A stretch of DNA of 28,381 nt from positions 1 to 28,381 of the IMG/VR virus record IMGVR_UViG_3300032288_000585. One strand, written 5' to 3'. The notes below the pieces were generated by a model, which was not told the DNA's origin, ran no database searches, and saw only the letters and a program-made list of their open reading frames with translations. Position 1 is the first letter of the stretch. Each line of letters starts with the position of its first letter. Both the position numbers and the translations under genes were made by a program. This document shows, one piece after another, positions 5,598 to 24,187 of this stretch. Origin of the DNA: a virus.

Positions 5598-6967
5598 AAT
5601 TCTGCACTCCATGCTAGGTAAGCAGTAGTATTAGCTGCTCTTCCAAATCCGCCATAACCAGCAGTTAAACCTGATGCTACTGTCAATACAGTTGTTGAGG
5701 AATATGTTGTTGCCAAGCTAAAAGTTGGGACAGCAGAACAGGCTACTGTGCTTGTGCTTCTTACTTCGTAATTTGCGGCAGTTCCGTTTTGTTCTAATGC
5801 AGTAGGAGCGGTTCGCATTTCAACAGGAAATTTATTACAAGCATTAAAAGTTGTTGTGGTTACAGAATATCCAGTTTCAGTAAGAGGAGCACTTAAAACT
5901 TGCGGAAAAACTTTGTAATAATACCTCTGACACAAAGCCAACTCAGCACCATACGAACCACCAGCTAATGTGAAGGTCGTTGCCTGTGTGCCTACTTCAA
6001 GCATTACGCCTGTGATGTAGAAAGTTGCTCCGTTTGTGCCGACTACGGATGTTGCTCCTGTAGCACCATAAAAAGTAGAACCTGACCAAGCACCAGCAGT
6101 ACCACTAACAGATGAGCCAACACCTAAACCAAATCGTAAATTAAGTCCTGTGCCGTTTGTTGTTCCCCAAGTCCCAGTTGTATCGCCAGCAATAGTGATT
6201 GTTTCATATTCCCATGTATTAGCTGATGAAATAGTATATGTGAATGGGTAACTTCTTGAAGAACCATCATTATTAATTACACCGCCAAAAGTACCAGTAA
6301 GGGAACTACGCACCCAAAAAGATAAAGTTACTGTTTTAGCGTTAGCTGTTCCCCATCCCAAATCAGCAATGTTAAAACCTTCAATTTGTTGTGCAACTGT
6401 AAATAATTCAGAAGCACCTACTGTGTAAGCAGAAGATGATGTAACTCCTAAATAATTAGTAAAACCAGCAGGCGGTGTTACAGAACCAGCATTTCTTTGA
6501 ACTGTAAATTTGGAAGTTTGCGATAAACTTGAATACCATCTATCCAAACTATATTGACCGCTAGTAGGTGTAATAGAAGCACCAGCATTACGCTGGTCAA
6601 TCACCATATTGCCGTTAATAATTCTGTTTTTGAACGAAATACCCAAGTCTTGTTGGGTATCTGAATTTAGTTGGTTCCAGCCTACTGTTCCCTGTCCTGT
6701 GGCAATAGTCTGAGTCGTGGTGCTGAGGTAACGCACATAGACGTTCTGTGTACCAGCCGATGGAGCAGAGGTAAAGGTGATGGTAGTACCGCTAATGGTA
6801 TAGCCAGCATTTGGTTGTTGGACTACGTTATTAACTACTGCTTCAACGTCATTTTGACTAGCAACTGTGCGAGTTAAAGTAAACGCAGTCTGTGAGCCTG
6901 TGCCGTTGAAATAGTCAGTTCCAGAGATAAAACTCTGGGTAGTTGGTGTATTTCCGAGGTATGACAT
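5594..6967 (-). CDS. Large tail fibre protein
   Basis: This 457-residue protein begins MSYLGNTPTTQSFISGTDYF. Residues 18-80 (YFNGTGSQTAFTL to NVYVRYLST) are the same N-terminal module as in the 315-residue fibre, presumably the attachment domain. Residues 105-200 hold the widespread phage pattern FKNRIINGNMVIDQRNAGAS followed by SLDRWY and FTVQR, which is part of a lectin-like beta sandwich domain. A later ITGVMLEVGTQATTF and ELALCQRYYYK complete that pattern. The C-terminal 110 residues should be the variable head. It is the longest adhesin of the series apart from the collagen-like one. Confidence 0.75.
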   Translation of the reverse strand: MSYLGNTPTTQSFISGTDYFNGTGSQTAFTLTRTVASQNDVEAVVNNVVQQPNAGYTISGTTITFTSAPSAGTQNVYVRYLSTTTQTIATGQGTVGWNQLNSDTQQDLGISFKNRIINGNMVIDQRNAGASITPTSGQYSLDRWYSSLSQTSKFTVQRNAGSVTPPAGFTNYLGVTSSSAYTVGASELFTVAQQIEGFNIADLGWGTANAKTVTLSFWVRSSLTGTFGGVINNDGSSRSYPFTYTISSANTWEYETITIAGDTTGTWGTTNGTGLNLRFGLGVGSSVSGTAGAWSGSTFYGATGATSVVGTNGATFYITGVMLEVGTQATTFTLAGGSYGAELALCQRYYYKVFPQVLSAPLTETGYSVTTTTFNACNKFPVEMRTAPTALEQNGTAANYEVRSTSTVACSAVPTFSLATTYSSTTVLTVASGLTAGYGGFGRAANTTAYLAWSAEL

Positions 6968-20211: not shown

Positions 20212-20248
20212 TATTTATACTAATGCACAAATCCTGGGGTATCCGCCC
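20212..20248 (-). promoter_or_regulatory. Late promoter element, copy 4
   Basis: The minus strand shows GGGCGG (20248-20243) directly at the end of the terminase stop codon, 15 bases, TGCATTAGT (20227-20219), then ATAAATAGGAA with the predicted start at 20212. The ATAAATAG stretch also resembles a T4-type late promoter TATAAATA, but the other copies do not keep that sequence. It serves the gene at 20191, the portal and the following small gene. Confidence 0.68.
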
Positions 20249-21693
20249 TACTGGGCGTAGGGGTTGGCAAATCGTTTGCTTAGGTCGTCGTCCACGTAAC
20301 TATAGTCTCGAGCCGGTAGCGGGTCGAGCTGGATCCATCCAGAATCACGTAAAACGCGCAACGCTTGCGAGAGGGAGTCGACGTAGTCGTCGTGTCCACC
20401 AGCCTCTGGAAATGAACATACTTGACGCAGAAAACGTTTTGCCCAGTCTGCATATTCTCCTTTGCGTTGTGGTTCCTCTGGTATCCAGACCTTACCCTTA
20501 GACACCAGCGGCGCGACAATGTTTAACCGTTGTACCTTATCGGCGCGTCCTGGATTGTATCCACGCACCGGCACGCCGGCGCCCTGGAGCTCCTGGATTA
20601 GCGAGATACCCGCCGACTTATCTTCCATAAGGATCAGGTCTGCTTTTCGGCCCTTGCCGAAGTCATTATCGGCGCCGTAGACGACCTCCTTGAAGTCGTT
20701 GATTACCTTCCTGCGTAGCTCGGGGTACGACAGGTGCTCGTCCCAAGCGTCCAGTAGTATGATTGCCGTGCCAGAGTCTAGTTGTTCAAACACGCCCCAG
20801 ATGGTGCAGGCGGTCGGGTCGTTCATTGTCTTCTCAGAAGTCGCCGGGTCATACGACGCAATGACATACTCCAGCGTTGGAGTCGGTTTGTTTGCTGGCC
20901 AGAGCTTAAACTGTTTACGCTTAATGATACCTGACTGTTCCGGGTCAAGGATCTCACCATAGATCTCTTGTCTTCCAATGTCAGTTCCGTCATACGTTTC
21001 AAGCTGTTTGAAAAAAGTCTCTGAAAGGTTTGCTCGGTTGTCGTAGGACGACGCGTTTGATACGTATACATCTCCACCTACTTTCCCCTCGTTTAGGTCT
21101 ACAATTAATTCTTTTGGTTTGGGAGTGGTGGTAATAATCTGCTGCACTCGAGGGATGCGTGGGTCCCGTAGACGGAGGGTAAACTGTACTCCATCGTAGG
21201 CATCATCGATGTAATCAAATGCACACAGCTCGTCAAACCACGCCCCGTGATATTGTTTACCTCGGTAGCGCTCAGGCTCGGAGGCCGGGATCCCCTGTAT
21301 AAGAGATCCATTTGTAAGGGTGATTTCAAACAGGGACTTGTTGTAGTCTCGTATAAGTGACGGGGGAATGATATTGAGAAGTCCAGAGTCCCCCTCGAAA
21401 CAAGTTGCACGTATATCGTTTGAGGTGGGAGCGGTGACGAGCCAGCGGGTGTTGTCATACATCCAAGCCCGAATGCCAATCCAGTGGCTAGCAGTGTGCG
21501 TCTTACCCGACCCGCGGCCGGCAAGCATAAGAAACGTGTCATATTCGCCATCCTCTGGCTCCCGTTGGTGTGGTAGCGCCTGTAGGTGCCACTTGACCTG
21601 CCAGATGGCAGCCTCAAGCTGTTCCTTAGGCCAGTGTTTGTTGCTATCTGCGAACTTTTTTAGTACAAGTTCTTGTTTTGATGTTAACGACAT
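20248..21693 (-). CDS. terL: Terminase large subunit (TerL)
   Basis: This 481-residue ATPase-nuclease drives DNA packaging. Walker A is LAGRGSGKT (57-65), Walker B with the catalytic Glu is AWFDEL (151-156) and the coupling motif is ITTTPKP (187-193). The RNase H-like nuclease shows SYDPA (D282), LMEDKSAG (E357) and GHDDYVDS (D435, D436, D439). All key residues are present and the N-terminus is complete, so this TerL carries no intein itself. The ATG at 21693 overlaps the last codons of the intein-like gene by ten bases, so the two are probably co-translated. The length is usual for the family. Confidence 0.93.
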   Translation of the reverse strand: MSLTSKQELVLKKFADSNKHWPKEQLEAAIWQVKWHLQALPHQREPEDGEYDTFLMLAGRGSGKTHTASHWIGIRAWMYDNTRWLVTAPTSNDIRATCFEGDSGLLNIIPPSLIRDYNKSLFEITLTNGSLIQGIPASEPERYRGKQYHGAWFDELCAFDYIDDAYDGVQFTLRLRDPRIPRVQQIITTTPKPKELIVDLNEGKVGGDVYVSNASSYDNRANLSETFFKQLETYDGTDIGRQEIYGEILDPEQSGIIKRKQFKLWPANKPTPTLEYVIASYDPATSEKTMNDPTACTIWGVFEQLDSGTAIILLDAWDEHLSYPELRRKVINDFKEVVYGADNDFGKGRKADLILMEDKSAGISLIQELQGAGVPVRGYNPGRADKVQRLNIVAPLVSKGKVWIPEEPQRKGEYADWAKRFLRQVCSFPEAGGHDDYVDSLSQALRVLRDSGWIQLDPLPARDYSYVDDDLSKRFANPYAQ

Positions 21694-22676
21694 GAAATAA
21701 AACCCTCTCCTACGAGATAGCTGTTATCCGGCCCGTCTGTTTCGATGTGAACACAGGTCTGTGGCTGGATCTTTGTAATTTTTTCGATGTACCTACGCGC
21801 CTGGTGTACTTTTATCGGCTTAGATACCTGATTAGGTACCAGCTTTAGCCTGGTTTTAAAAAATAGCGAGTAAATTTTCTTTTGTTCTATAAAACTAAGC
21901 CGGGTCTTGCCGCCCAGGGACTCAACTAGGCCCTGAACTGCCAGCGCCGTGCCGTAATGCGTCGTAGAGAACCTAAACTGGTCTCTGTTTGTCGAATATT
22001 GCTGGGCCTTTGCAAACAAAATGCCACGCAGCAGCTCAATTCGCTGCTCTTTGTCCGCCAGCAGGTAGTTTGCCGGTAATTTTGTCGGAATATCTGGGGC
22101 CAACTGTGACTCTATGGTCGGCGATATGGTAAATTGACGCCAGCCATTCTTCAAAGTCTTGCGGATCTTAATTTTGTACCCAAATTGTTTGAGCTGCTGC
22201 TCAACTTCTTCGGTTGTGTCGGGGTTTGTTGTAAAATATCCGCTGGGTTTGCGGTTTATAAACCAGAACCCGAACACAAACGGCGGGACTGGTAGGGTCT
22301 GGTGGGGTAGCTCGATGGGTTTTGTGGTAGGGATCGAATAGATCCGGTGGTTGTCTTCCCGTTTATAGCCCTGCTCTATCAAATTTTCCACGTTCATGGG
22401 CCGTAGTGGCCTTCTAAACGGGTGGTATCCCTTGTATGTCATGGCACGCAGCCGGTACTTAAAGTTTTCCACCAAAAATTCTAGGCGTTTGTCCCCAGAG
22501 ATTGTAAGGTAATCGTTTAGGGTAACCTCGTAACAATCTTCTGAGAAGTATTCCTGGACCAGCTTTACCCTTACGGGCTTGCCATTTTGGTCAAACAGGT
22601 AGTCACCTGGCTGGATTTTGTTTGCTGGTTTCCAGTAGTCCAGGGTCAGGACTTTTTGATTTGCTAGTATCGCCAT
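21684..22676 (-). CDS. Free-standing intein-like protein: Hint domain with inserted LAGLIDADG domain, catalytic residues lost
   Basis: This 330-residue protein aligns by eye with a large intein. Residues 5-27 resemble block A (VLTLDYWKPANKIQPGD) and 54-67 block B (LTISGDKRLEF). Block C is 131-145 (PPFVFGFWFINRKPSG), block E is 213-224 (IELLRGILFAKA) followed by FRFSTTHYGTALAVQGLVES, and blocks F and G are 308-330 (CVHIETDGPDNSY, LVGEGFISCR). Expected catalytic residues are replaced: Cys1 aligns with Ala, block B His with K63, LAGLIDADG Asp residues with N141 and K223, and the final His-Asn with Cys-Arg before a stop. It should neither splice nor cut DNA. The frame is intact, which suggests selection. 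It sits where many phages encode TerS. A WhiA-like DNA-binding role is one hypothesis. Confidence 0.78.
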   Translation of the reverse strand: MAILANQKVLTLDYWKPANKIQPGDYLFDQNGKPVRVKLVQEYFSEDCYEVTLNDYLTISGDKRLEFLVENFKYRLRAMTYKGYHPFRRPLRPMNVENLIEQGYKREDNHRIYSIPTTKPIELPHQTLPVPPFVFGFWFINRKPSGYFTTNPDTTEEVEQQLKQFGYKIKIRKTLKNGWRQFTISPTIESQLAPDIPTKLPANYLLADKEQRIELLRGILFAKAQQYSTNRDQFRFSTTHYGTALAVQGLVESLGGKTRLSFIEQKKIYSLFFKTRLKLVPNQVSKPIKVHQARRYIEKITKIQPQTCVHIETDGPDNSYLVGEGFISCR

Positions 22677-22944
22677 AAAAATTCTCTAGGACCCACAGGT
22701 CCAGCCAACGCCCTAACGGCGCTCGAATCCTGTTCTGTACCTCGACCGGTAATCGGTTAATGTCGAGGTAATCACAGACCTTTAAACGAAACTCAATGTA
22801 CCTAGCCGTCTCCTTGTCCAATATTCCTATGGGCGCGTCGGCAGAATCAAAATGCGTGAGGGTACAGACAAGCACACGGAGACCACGCAAGACTCCATTG
22901 GAATCTTCTAGGGCACCCTGTATTTGGTAAACGTATTCGTTCAT
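22603..22944 (-). CDS. Unknown protein heading the terminase unit, 113 residues
   Basis: It begins MNEYVYQIQGALEDSNGVLR and contains KETARYIEFRLKVCDYLDIN (about 44-63) and APLGRWLDLWVLENFYGD, then a low-complexity Ser/Lys end. The last 74 bases overlap the start of the intein-like gene in another frame. Its small size and position before TerL would also suit a terminase small subunit, although no helix-turn-helix is obvious. Its ATG has no ribosome binding site and coincides with the predicted transcript start of promoter copy 5. The function is not recognised. Confidence 0.55.
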   Translation of the reverse strand: MNEYVYQIQGALEDSNGVLRGLRVLVCTLTHFDSADAPIGILDKETARYIEFRLKVCDYLDINRLPVEVQNRIRAPLGRWLDLWVLENFYGDTSKSKSPDPGLLETSKQNPAR

Positions 22945-22980
22945 ACATCTACTAATGCAAACATTTGATTATTATAGCCC
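22944..22980 (-). promoter_or_regulatory. Late promoter element, copy 5
   Basis: The minus strand shows GGGCTA (22980-22975), 15 bases, TGCATTAGT (22959-22951), then AGATGTATGAAC. The GGGC part of the upstream box is kept at the exact spacing of the other copies. The predicted start is the A of the ATG at 22944. This would drive the 113-residue gene, the intein-like gene and TerL. Confidence 0.62.
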
Positions 22981-22991
22981 CACCTTAACGC

Positions 22992-23008
22992 GATAGTTTT
23001 TAACTATC
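22992..23008. repeat. Palindrome GATAGTT-TTT-AACTATC
   Basis: Perfect 7-base arms flank a three-base centre. It lies about 15 bases beyond promoter copy 5, on its upstream side. On the plus strand it is followed by CAATTTT, so a weak terminator for plus-strand transcripts is an alternative to an operator. Confidence 0.45.
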
Positions 23009-23026
23009 AATTTTGCTCGCAGAAGC

Positions 23027-23131
23027 GCGGCACTTGCGGCACTTGCGGGGGTATATTCCAGGTTTCCCTCTATCTTTATTTTTCTTTTTTAAAAATAATA
23101 AAAATAGTAAAGTAACCCCCGCAACCCCCGC
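23027..23131. repeat. GC-rich repeats flanking an AT-rich core (possible origin)
   Basis: GCGGCACTT occurs twice in tandem (23027-23035, 23036-23044). AACCCCCGC occurs twice in tandem (23114-23122, 23123-23131). TTGCGGGGG (23043-23051) is the inverse of CCCCCGCAA (23116-23124). Between them lie about 60 bases of almost pure A and T. Short iterons beside an easily melted stretch, at a point of transcription divergence, suit a replication origin. A DNA-bend or protein site is equally possible. Confidence 0.35.
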
Positions 23132-23165
23132 ATCCCCGTCGAACATCAAGGACTTAGCGCATTTC

Positions 23166-23182
23166 ATTTCACATTGTGAAAT
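23166..23182. repeat. Palindrome ATTTCACA-T-TGTGAAAT
   Basis: Perfect 8-base arms surround a single central base. The size and symmetry are those of a dimeric repressor operator. No repressor gene is in the window. Confidence 0.45.
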
Positions 23183-23214
23183 TTGTTTCTCAAAATTTAC
23201 AAAAAAAATTTTAG

Positions 23215-23226
23215 AAAGTCGACTTT
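23215..23226. repeat. Palindrome AAAGTCGACTTT
   Basis: A perfect 12-base palindrome directly after an A/T-rich stretch (23193-23212). It may be a protein-binding site or chance, since short palindromes are common. Confidence 0.3.
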
Positions 23227-23320
23227 TGTGGGGAATGGAACGAGCTTGGGGTCTGTGGGGCCCCCGGGCCGCCGCCCCGCCACGGGACCCAAATTGGGGT
23301 ATCGCATTATGAAAAAGCCC

Positions 23321-23381
23321 CTGTGCACCAAAATGGTGCACAGATTCACCGCCTTGGTGCGCGTGCACCAACATGGTGCAC
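23321..23381. repeat. Two GTGCACCA-N3-TGGTGCAC palindromes, 40 bases apart
   Basis: Site 1 (23321-23343) is CTGTGCACCA, AAA, TGGTGCACAG, a perfect 10-base inverted repeat. Site 2 (23363-23381) is GTGCACCA, ACA, TGGTGCAC, perfect over 8 bases. Their centres are at 23332 and 23372, 40 bases or about four helical turns apart, so proteins bound at both would face the same side. A lone half-site GGTGCAC lies at 23559-23565. Confidence 0.6.
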
Positions 23382-23390
23382 AGCTCGAGC

Positions 23391-23426
23391 GCCTCGATGT
23401 TAGTGAGCGCTTACTAACATCGAGGC
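23391..23426. repeat. Near-perfect 36-base palindrome containing operator copy 1
   Basis: Fourteen-base arms GCCTCGATGTTAGT and its complement flank a GAGCGCTT centre, with only one mismatched pair in the whole 36 bases. Inside is the 20-base unit GTTAGTGAGCGCTTACTAAC (23399-23418), which recurs at 23456-23475 and 23532-23551. It could act as an operator in DNA or a very stable hairpin in RNA. Confidence 0.65.
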
Positions 23427-23455
23427 ACCGCGCCCCCCTGCCAAGTAGCGCATAG

Positions 23456-23475
23456 GTTAGTGAGTACTAACTAAC
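23456..23475. repeat. Operator-like repeat, copy 2
   Basis: GTTAGTGAGTACTAACTAAC keeps the outer arms GTTAGT and ACTAAC and the palindromic centre AGTACT, with one mismatched pair between them, the same plan as copy 1. The centre-to-centre distance to copy 1 is 57 bases. Confidence 0.6.
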
Positions 23476-23531
23476 ATGGGCGAGCGCCCACTCTGTCCCC
23501 ATTATCAGCACTCTCATTGCCTGAGTGCTAA

Positions 23532-23551
23532 GTTAGTAAGTGCTAACTAAC
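23532..23551. repeat. Operator-like repeat, copy 3
   Basis: GTTAGTAAGTGCTAACTAAC has the same outer arms and length as copies 1 and 2. Its centre AGTGCT is not fully symmetrical. The distance to copy 2 is 76 bases. It overlaps a direct repeat of AGTGCTAA and is followed by the small hairpin CTTGTTG/CAACAAG (23551-23571). Confidence 0.58.
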
Positions 23552-23812
23552 TTGTTGCGGTGCACAACAAGATTAGGGTTTCCCCTAGTTGACGGATTGG
23601 ACGCGTTCTAAGGGGTCGCCACGCCACGATCGCAGTTTGTGATGGTTAGGTATTAACTGGGTGACGATCGTTGAGCCATGGAGCTGGGGTGCTGTGGTAA
23701 AGGCTTTGCGGGCGCGAGGGCGGATAGGTGGGGTGGGCGAGTGATCAGGTAATTCGGATTACCACAATATCCCACAATCCCCCACAGTTTAGTCGGGTAT
23801 TTTATTTAATTG

Positions 23813-23842
23813 TTTACATTTAAATCAAAAGGTCTGTACAAT
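23813..23842 (+). promoter_or_regulatory. Sigma-70-like early promoter
   Basis: TTTACA (23813-23818) and TACAAT (23837-23842) are separated by 18 bases, close to the host consensus. The 17 bases AAAAGGTCTGTACAATA around the -10 box recur almost unchanged (one C to T change) at the second rightward promoter near 27330, so the site is likely used. Transcription would start near 23849 and yield the structured leader. Confidence 0.68.
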
Positions 23843-23848
23843 AGAGGG

Positions 23849-24187
23849 TATCGGAAGTGCAGTGGCTAATCCACTCAAACGCAAACCCAACCGCGATCTA
23901 TAAGGGGGAGCCGGCAGAACCGGTGCTGTTATCCAACACAGCGTATGCTAACAGTAATACAGCGCAGTATGTTGCTGAGTTATCAAGTAGGTAAGCAGGA
24001 AACGGGGTTCGCCTCGAAACGATTAGTTAGCTAGTCAAACAAGCAAACCGAATAGTCTTGGCCAAGAGTGTGGACTAGCATATCCACTTAACTCAGTAAC
24101 ATACTGCGCTGTAAGATAGTAATGCTCAGAGCGCATTGTTTACAGTGTGCTCGAGGCAGTACTAACCAAACAACAGGAGATTACACC
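23849..24187 (+). ncRNA. Structured leader RNA of the early genes
   Basis: About 340 bases lie between the promoter and the first early gene. A 23-base arm (23959-23981) is complementary to 24090-24112, with only one G-U pair in RNA. Inside are a hairpin CGGGG-UUCG-CCUCG (24003-24016) and a 7-bp stem (24030-24036 with 24073-24079) that holds the self-complementary TCTTGGCCAAGA. Outside are hairpins AGTGG/CCACT (23861-23875), GCTGT/ACAGC (23925-23942) and GAGCGCA/TGTGCTC (24129-24152). The last ends 35 bases before the ATG. It fits no RNA class I can name. It could be a stable small RNA, a riboswitch-like leader or an attenuator. Confidence 0.58.

Follow-up and report, generated by a model that had tools for sequence, protein, structure and literature searches.

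The window, i.e., the whole 28,381-nucleotide stretch of viral DNA that was analyzed, encodes on its minus strand a free-standing, catalytically dead class 3-type intein, IL330 (positions 21684–22676, 330 aa plus stop), as judged from its reading frame, an AF2 model, and profile comparisons. Inteins are commonly regarded as selfish elements that vanish unless they splice. IL330 is unable to splice or cut, yet it is kept intact in hundreds of phage contigs; its existence and its constraint are well supported, and it is a domesticated intein rather than a decaying one. A selfish element has thus probably come to serve the phage as a normal protein, most likely as a helper that binds DNA. The task of the protein is our best guess, a reasoned one. 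The explanation as a whole, that a class 3-type intein was domesticated and is now a basic, non-cutting DNA-binding accessory, is in our judgement slightly likelier right than wrong, the function being the part that we infer. No report of a domesticated full-length intein in phages was found in the open-access papers searched.

The frame of IL330 is complete, with an ATG, 330 codons, and a TAA, and stands directly before TerL, as an earlier note on this DNA had described. The TAA overlaps the ATG of TerL, such that the end of IL330 and the TerL start share 10 nt (21684–21693, minus strand) in the manner of coupled genes, and this overlap is present in most loci. TerL (20248–21693, minus strand) is, again as described, whole and has its own start; its 481-aa frame is uninterrupted, its Walker A motif (LAGRGSGKT) is intact, and its identity is clear from matches to Terminase_6N (E 1.3e-16) and to PHROG TerL families. 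On the other side, a conserved gene, up113 (22603–22944, minus strand), lies directly before IL330 and overlaps its start. The AF2 model of up113 (pLDDT 82) shows a beta-beta-beta-alpha-alpha arrangement, and up113 belongs to no known family or fold; with no PDB match above Z 4.8, its assignment as TerS or as a known fold was rejected. The order up113–IL330–TerL–portal holds in all loci reaching far enough, apart from a few in which up113 is not detectable. In all relatives, IL330 is a separate ORF, never an in-frame insertion in a host protein, and TerL is whole. A sequencing error that splits a TerL intein was rejected since the same layout occurs in more than 120 loci, and an active intein or fused TerL was rejected because there is no extein, the residues required are lost, and TerL is whole.

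Searches of curated families with IL330 gave no NCBIfam or PADLOC match and only a sub-threshold LAGLIDADG_3 match in Pfam; thus, the assignment rests on PHROG profiles, profile–profile comparison, and fold. PHROG 15 (terminase large subunit) matches IL330 with E 1.7e-13; the match begins at profile position 83 and is read as covering the intein part of that profile. An hhalign comparison of 63 IL330 relatives with 12 phage inteins gave a probability of 100% and E 6e-44 over 309 columns. The AF2 model of IL330, built from the 63-member alignment (pLDDT 93.6, pTM 0.89), is matched by PI-SceI along the whole chain (Z 25.5, 312 residues, 3.4 Å; Foldseek, VIA-align), and its splicing part is matched by the class 3 intein MchDnaB-1 (6rix) with Z 19.5 over 128 of 130 residues at 1.8 Å. 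The large-intein make-up with a DOD endonuclease part, which had earlier been read by eye, is thus borne out by both profile and fold. Structure and profile alignment place the N-terminal half of the Hint fold at residues 1–95 or so (22392–22676), the LAGLIDADG (DOD) endonuclease part at about residues 96–293 (21798–22391; net positive, with 29 K/R and 17 D/E), and the C-terminal part of the Hint fold at residues 294–330 (21687–21797), all on the minus strand. The Hint fold runs from position 1 to the C-terminus in comparison with 6rix, and the two-fold LAGLIDADG core is present, with I-DmoI and WhiA among the Foldseek hits.

A tblastn search of phage genomes with IL330 returned 368 records, none of which reached 60% identity; inteins within TerL, helicases, and exonucleases were the best matches. 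The 12 nearest full-length phage inteins, which comprise those in TerL of Constella, YungMoney, CMP1, ACF1, Nebkiss, and B23, in DnaB of Rousseau, in a Cas4-like exonuclease, and others, are all class 3-like, with His B:10, Trp B:12, Cys F:4, and the terminal Asn invariant and Thr G:5 mostly present. Class 3 inteins normally have no Cys1, and none is found in 11 of these 12. IL330 thus descends from a class 3-type intein that carried a LAGLIDADG domain, and the Ala at position 1 (Ala2 of IL330) is ancestral; the earlier reading, that Cys1 had been lost to Ala, does not hold, since a class 3-like ancestor need not have had Cys1. In a tree, the IL330 family forms a single long branch among class 3 inteins whose hosts include TerL, DnaB, and Cas4-like exonuclease; apart from a long-branch pairing at 76%, no sister group receives support. 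An origin from any particular host protein was therefore not accepted, which includes the escape from TerL proposed by the earlier note.

The residues needed for splicing and cutting were counted in 63 non-redundant relatives (below 95% identity). His B:10 is replaced by L65 (L or M in 63/63), rather than falling at K63 as had been read by eye, Trp B:12 by F67 (F or L in 63/63), and Cys F:4, in the C-terminal part, by H310 (H, Y, or T in all 63). The places of the two LAGLIDADG acids had been read correctly, with N141 (22254–22256, minus strand; N, A, S, or G in 63/63) at the first and K223 (22008–22010, minus strand; K or R in 63/63) at the second, and the glycines beside them are replaced in nearly all of the 63. 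Splicing further requires a C-terminal Asn followed by a Ser, Thr, or Cys extein residue, whereas IL330 stops one residue earlier: the structure alignment pairs R330 with residue 144 of MchDnaB-1, in which the Asn is residue 145, showing that R330 corresponds to the penultimate intein residue and that the final Asn is simply absent. The earlier pairing of the last His-Asn with Cys-Arg was thus right as to the loss of the Asn and wrong as to the residues paired; moreover, it is largely the shared TerL ATG that fixes the last two residues, so that their conservation is no evidence by itself. The B:10 alignment may be off by one residue, as position 64 is His in 23 of the 63 relatives (Arg in the window protein). 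Neither this doubt nor the one concerning C308, discussed below, restores an active set in any member.

With the window protein as query, one scan of viral contigs yielded 42 loci; candidate relatives numbered 202 in an alignment-based search and 296 when a second, more divergent alignment was used. The carriers are a large freshwater phage group. From the fetched loci, 126 near-complete proteins of 323–331 residues were extracted, 63 of them below 95% identity; the window protein shares 45–87% identity with the 62 other representatives and 98% with the truncated locus L022. Three further IL330-bearing virus contigs (L094, L095, and L096), binned in one betaproteobacterial MAG, give a hint at the host.

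Selection was measured as pairwise Nei–Gojobori dN/dS (dS 0.15–1.5) over codons 30–325, which avoids both gene overlaps, and gave a median of 0.088, the values coming from pairs of related sequences rather than from independent events. The Hint N part (0.056), the DOD part (0.105), and the Hint C part (0.044) are all constrained, as are the neighbors TerL (0.042) and up113 (about 0.21). Whereas a pseudogene would show dN/dS near 1 and frequent frame breaks, an internal stop was found in only one IL330 locus (L056/L130) of well over 120. The earlier note had held that splicing and nuclease residues were lost in an open frame and that this argued against simple decay, and had named relatives keeping the catalytic residues, a fusion to TerL, or dN/dS near 1 as results that would count against it. 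On these points its reading is upheld: no relative keeps the catalytic set, none is fused to TerL, and dN/dS is nowhere near 1. The catalytic loss in all 63 relatives, the single broken locus, the dN/dS of about 0.09, and the fixed solo place thus argue for domestication.

A mobile element would show a patchy and incongruent distribution, whereas IL330 is always found at one locus and is congruent with TerL. The two distance matrices agree (Mantel r 0.73, with 0 of 2000 permutations as high), suggesting vertical descent in one lineage rather than homing. The retrieved TerL relatives fall into two sets, those at least 83% identical to the window TerL (83–100%), which have IL330, and those at 38–57%, which lack it; TerL lineages at 58–82% identity, in which a half-degraded IL330 might be seen, were not found in the collection searches. 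TerL is far more conserved than IL330, with mean distances of 0.13 and 0.46, respectively, such that IL330 evolves about 3.5 times faster.

The data show a class 3-type phage intein that, with its endonuclease domain, has come to stand as a gene of its own in the late/packaging operon (up113–IL330–terL–portal). Splicing and cutting were lost once, in the common ancestor of the family, and the gene has since been passed on alongside terL while strong purifying selection acted on it. IL330 would keep its DNA-binding scaffold (Hint plus LAGLIDADG) without catalysis. The pI is 9.3–9.9 in all members versus 6.1–9.3 in active intein relatives, and with both cores kept, non-cutting DNA binding is the simplest use of the scaffold; DNA recognition, which the earlier note had suggested as the retained task, remains plausible. 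Made just before TerL via the overlapping start, IL330 may serve the packaging/late operon as an accessory protein that binds specific DNA sequences and does not cut them, either presenting or protecting a site for terminase or controlling the operon from the repeat-rich region about 0.5–1.25 kb upstream. A more specific version, in which the complete intein was exapted as a non-catalytic, sequence-specific DNA-recognition subunit of the packaging machinery or of late-operon control, with the former splicing and homing endonuclease domains both used, is put forward tentatively, its chances being a little short of even.

The upstream region is a 1.2-kb non-coding divergent region before the operon (22945–24121). 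It contains two copies of a palindrome A (TGCACCANNNTGGTGCA; 23324–23340 and 23364–23380) and one palindrome B (AGTRAGYRCTYACT; 23402–23415), which are candidate regulatory sites. Among the 82 testable IL330-bearing loci, A is found in 61 and B in 43, almost confined to the pre-operon region, and 10 have neither; both are absent from the 80 loci without IL330, and none is expected from shuffles. The palindromes are thus candidate IL330 targets that could also belong to another regulator; as they show co-occurrence only and 10 of the 82 loci have neither, we do not claim that they are tied to IL330. A 25-nt inverted repeat (96%; 23958–23982 and 24089–24113) is also present in this region.

Constraint on the Hint part is no weaker than on the endonuclease part, which means that the function of IL330 may instead be protein–protein. 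IL330 could be a partner of TerL or of head assembly, e.g., a chaperone or a regulator of the ATPase or nuclease, with its contacts made through the Hint fold and DNA recognition playing no part; the strict adjacency to terL and the coupled start codons fit such a role, and the loss of splicing residues would leave it unharmed. However, IL330 evolves about 3.5 times faster than TerL, and the strongly basic character and the complete LAGLIDADG core would be needless for a pure Hint adaptor. We consider this partner role unlikely, although it deserves to be taken seriously.

IL330, alone or with up113, could also have replaced the small terminase subunit and recognize the packaging site, as LAGLIDADG scaffolds bind long specific sites and as IL330 is the gene directly before terL, a position by which TerS is recognized. 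Among TerL relatives without IL330, a phrog_1482-type TerS is found near TerL in 75 of 80 loci, as it is in the annotated phages MW202545 and Caulobacter GB2A, both without IL330, but it is absent from the fetched stretches of all IL330 loci; absence was not counted in the first phrog_1482 search, which missed known TerS genes (no match in G012, though L142 has one). However, 9 of the 11 long IL330-bearing records chosen first (38–68 kb) encode another TerS-like protein of ~130 residues (phrog_309, E 3e-13 and 4e-10), e.g., at G001 45409–45792 (minus), G002 33986–34378 (plus), and G006 23776–24165 (minus), with six more records. Wherever its distance was measured, this gene lies ~20 kb from terL and on the opposite strand, and the window, a 28-kb fragment, ends short of it. 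The phrog_309-type protein was found in none of five records without IL330 and in neither of two further partial IL330-bearing records (G016 and G017). TerS thus seems to have been exchanged and moved in the IL330-bearing phages, and IL330 need not stand in for it. In addition, TerS profiles do not match IL330, which has the intein fold over residues 1–330 and no HTH or ring-forming TerS fold. Replacement of TerS as the sole explanation was set aside once the phrog_309-type gene was found, and we regard it as quite improbable; of the earlier suggestion that IL330 stands in the usual place of TerS, the position holds and the substitution is not needed. In Caulobacter phage GB2A, a second TerL ATPase-like ORF of 222 aa follows TerS directly (L099 2445–3113), besides a full TerL.

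In comparison with a DNA-binding accessory, the remaining explanations fare worse. A dead endonuclease sitting on the empty terL intein site could serve as an anti-homing guard that blocks class 3 inteins, given that TerL inteins located behind the GK of the Walker A motif are among the nearest active relatives and that no TerL of an IL330 carrier is interrupted; however, the TerL relatives without IL330 are uninterrupted too and the group shows no competing intein, which makes the guard very improbable. It is harder still to credit that IL330 retains some chemistry of the Hint type, be it autoprocessing or ligation in trans, in which C308 would replace the class 3 nucleophile. C308 is invariant in 63/63 relatives and lies two residues from the F:4 column, and phmmer pairs it with the F:4 Cys via a two-residue gap, whereas gapless, MAFFT, and profile alignments place H310 there; no extein is attached, and with His B:10, Trp B:12, and the terminal Asn gone, the usual splicing steps cannot be completed. 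Least credible is an inert relic kept open only through translational coupling, since, for all that the stop overlaps the TerL ATG in most loci and only one locus has an internal stop, this explanation appears largely refuted already by the substitution pattern, with low dN/dS across the frame away from the overlaps and 36 invariant alignment columns, and the frame is open even at L003 and L127, where an HNH-like ORF parts IL330 from TerL.

Compared with known systems, IL330 shares with class 3 phage inteins (those of TerL, DnaB, and Cas4-like exonuclease; MchDnaB-1, 6rix; MsmDnaB1, 6bs8) the Hint fold, which begins at position 1 and extends to the penultimate residue, an identically placed LAGLIDADG insert, and the lack of Cys1, whereas Trp B:12, Cys F:4, His B:10, the terminal Asn, both LAGLIDADG acids, and the exteins are missing. 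The full-length fold is shared with PI-SceI/VDE. Yeast HO endonuclease is likewise a stand-alone, non-splicing, domesticated intein relative; however, HO has remained a nuclease and acquired a zinc finger, whereas in IL330 the nuclease acids are gone and no domain has been added (PMC7282813). WhiA (DUF199), whose LAGLIDADG core has ceased to cut and now serves a DNA-binding regulator (PMC7282813), is a precedent for the proposed DNA binding, but it is bacterial and has an HTH and no Hint domain, while the IL330 chain is wholly Hint plus LAGLIDADG with no WhiA-type HTH. Closest in its state of loss is the Arth_1007 intein pseudogene of Arthrobacter FB24, which is class 3-type, lies outside its proper host protein, and lacks Cys F:4 and His B:10 (PMC3196547). 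The 2011 report on this decayed intein held that inactive inteins should drift beyond recognition; Arth_1007 is a single decayed locus in one genome, whereas IL330 is intact in hundreds of contigs under purifying selection. IL330 makes it testable whether the Hint fold can serve a purely structural or binding role.

It also makes testable how homing elements beside terminase genes join the packaging module. The HNH protein (HEG-like) encoded beside the HK97 terminase helps cos cleavage and works with terminase (PMC10448857). Such nucleases resemble IL330 as homing-type proteins encoded beside terminase and possibly recruited to packaging, but they have a different fold, are active, and are not intein-derived (PMC10448857). 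The HNH-like ORF at L003 (128 aa, 5889–6275; CEYTGLPF...PSLDRIDP, read by eye) lies between IL330 and TerL, and gaps of similar size separate the two genes at L018, L019, L127, L128, and L137.
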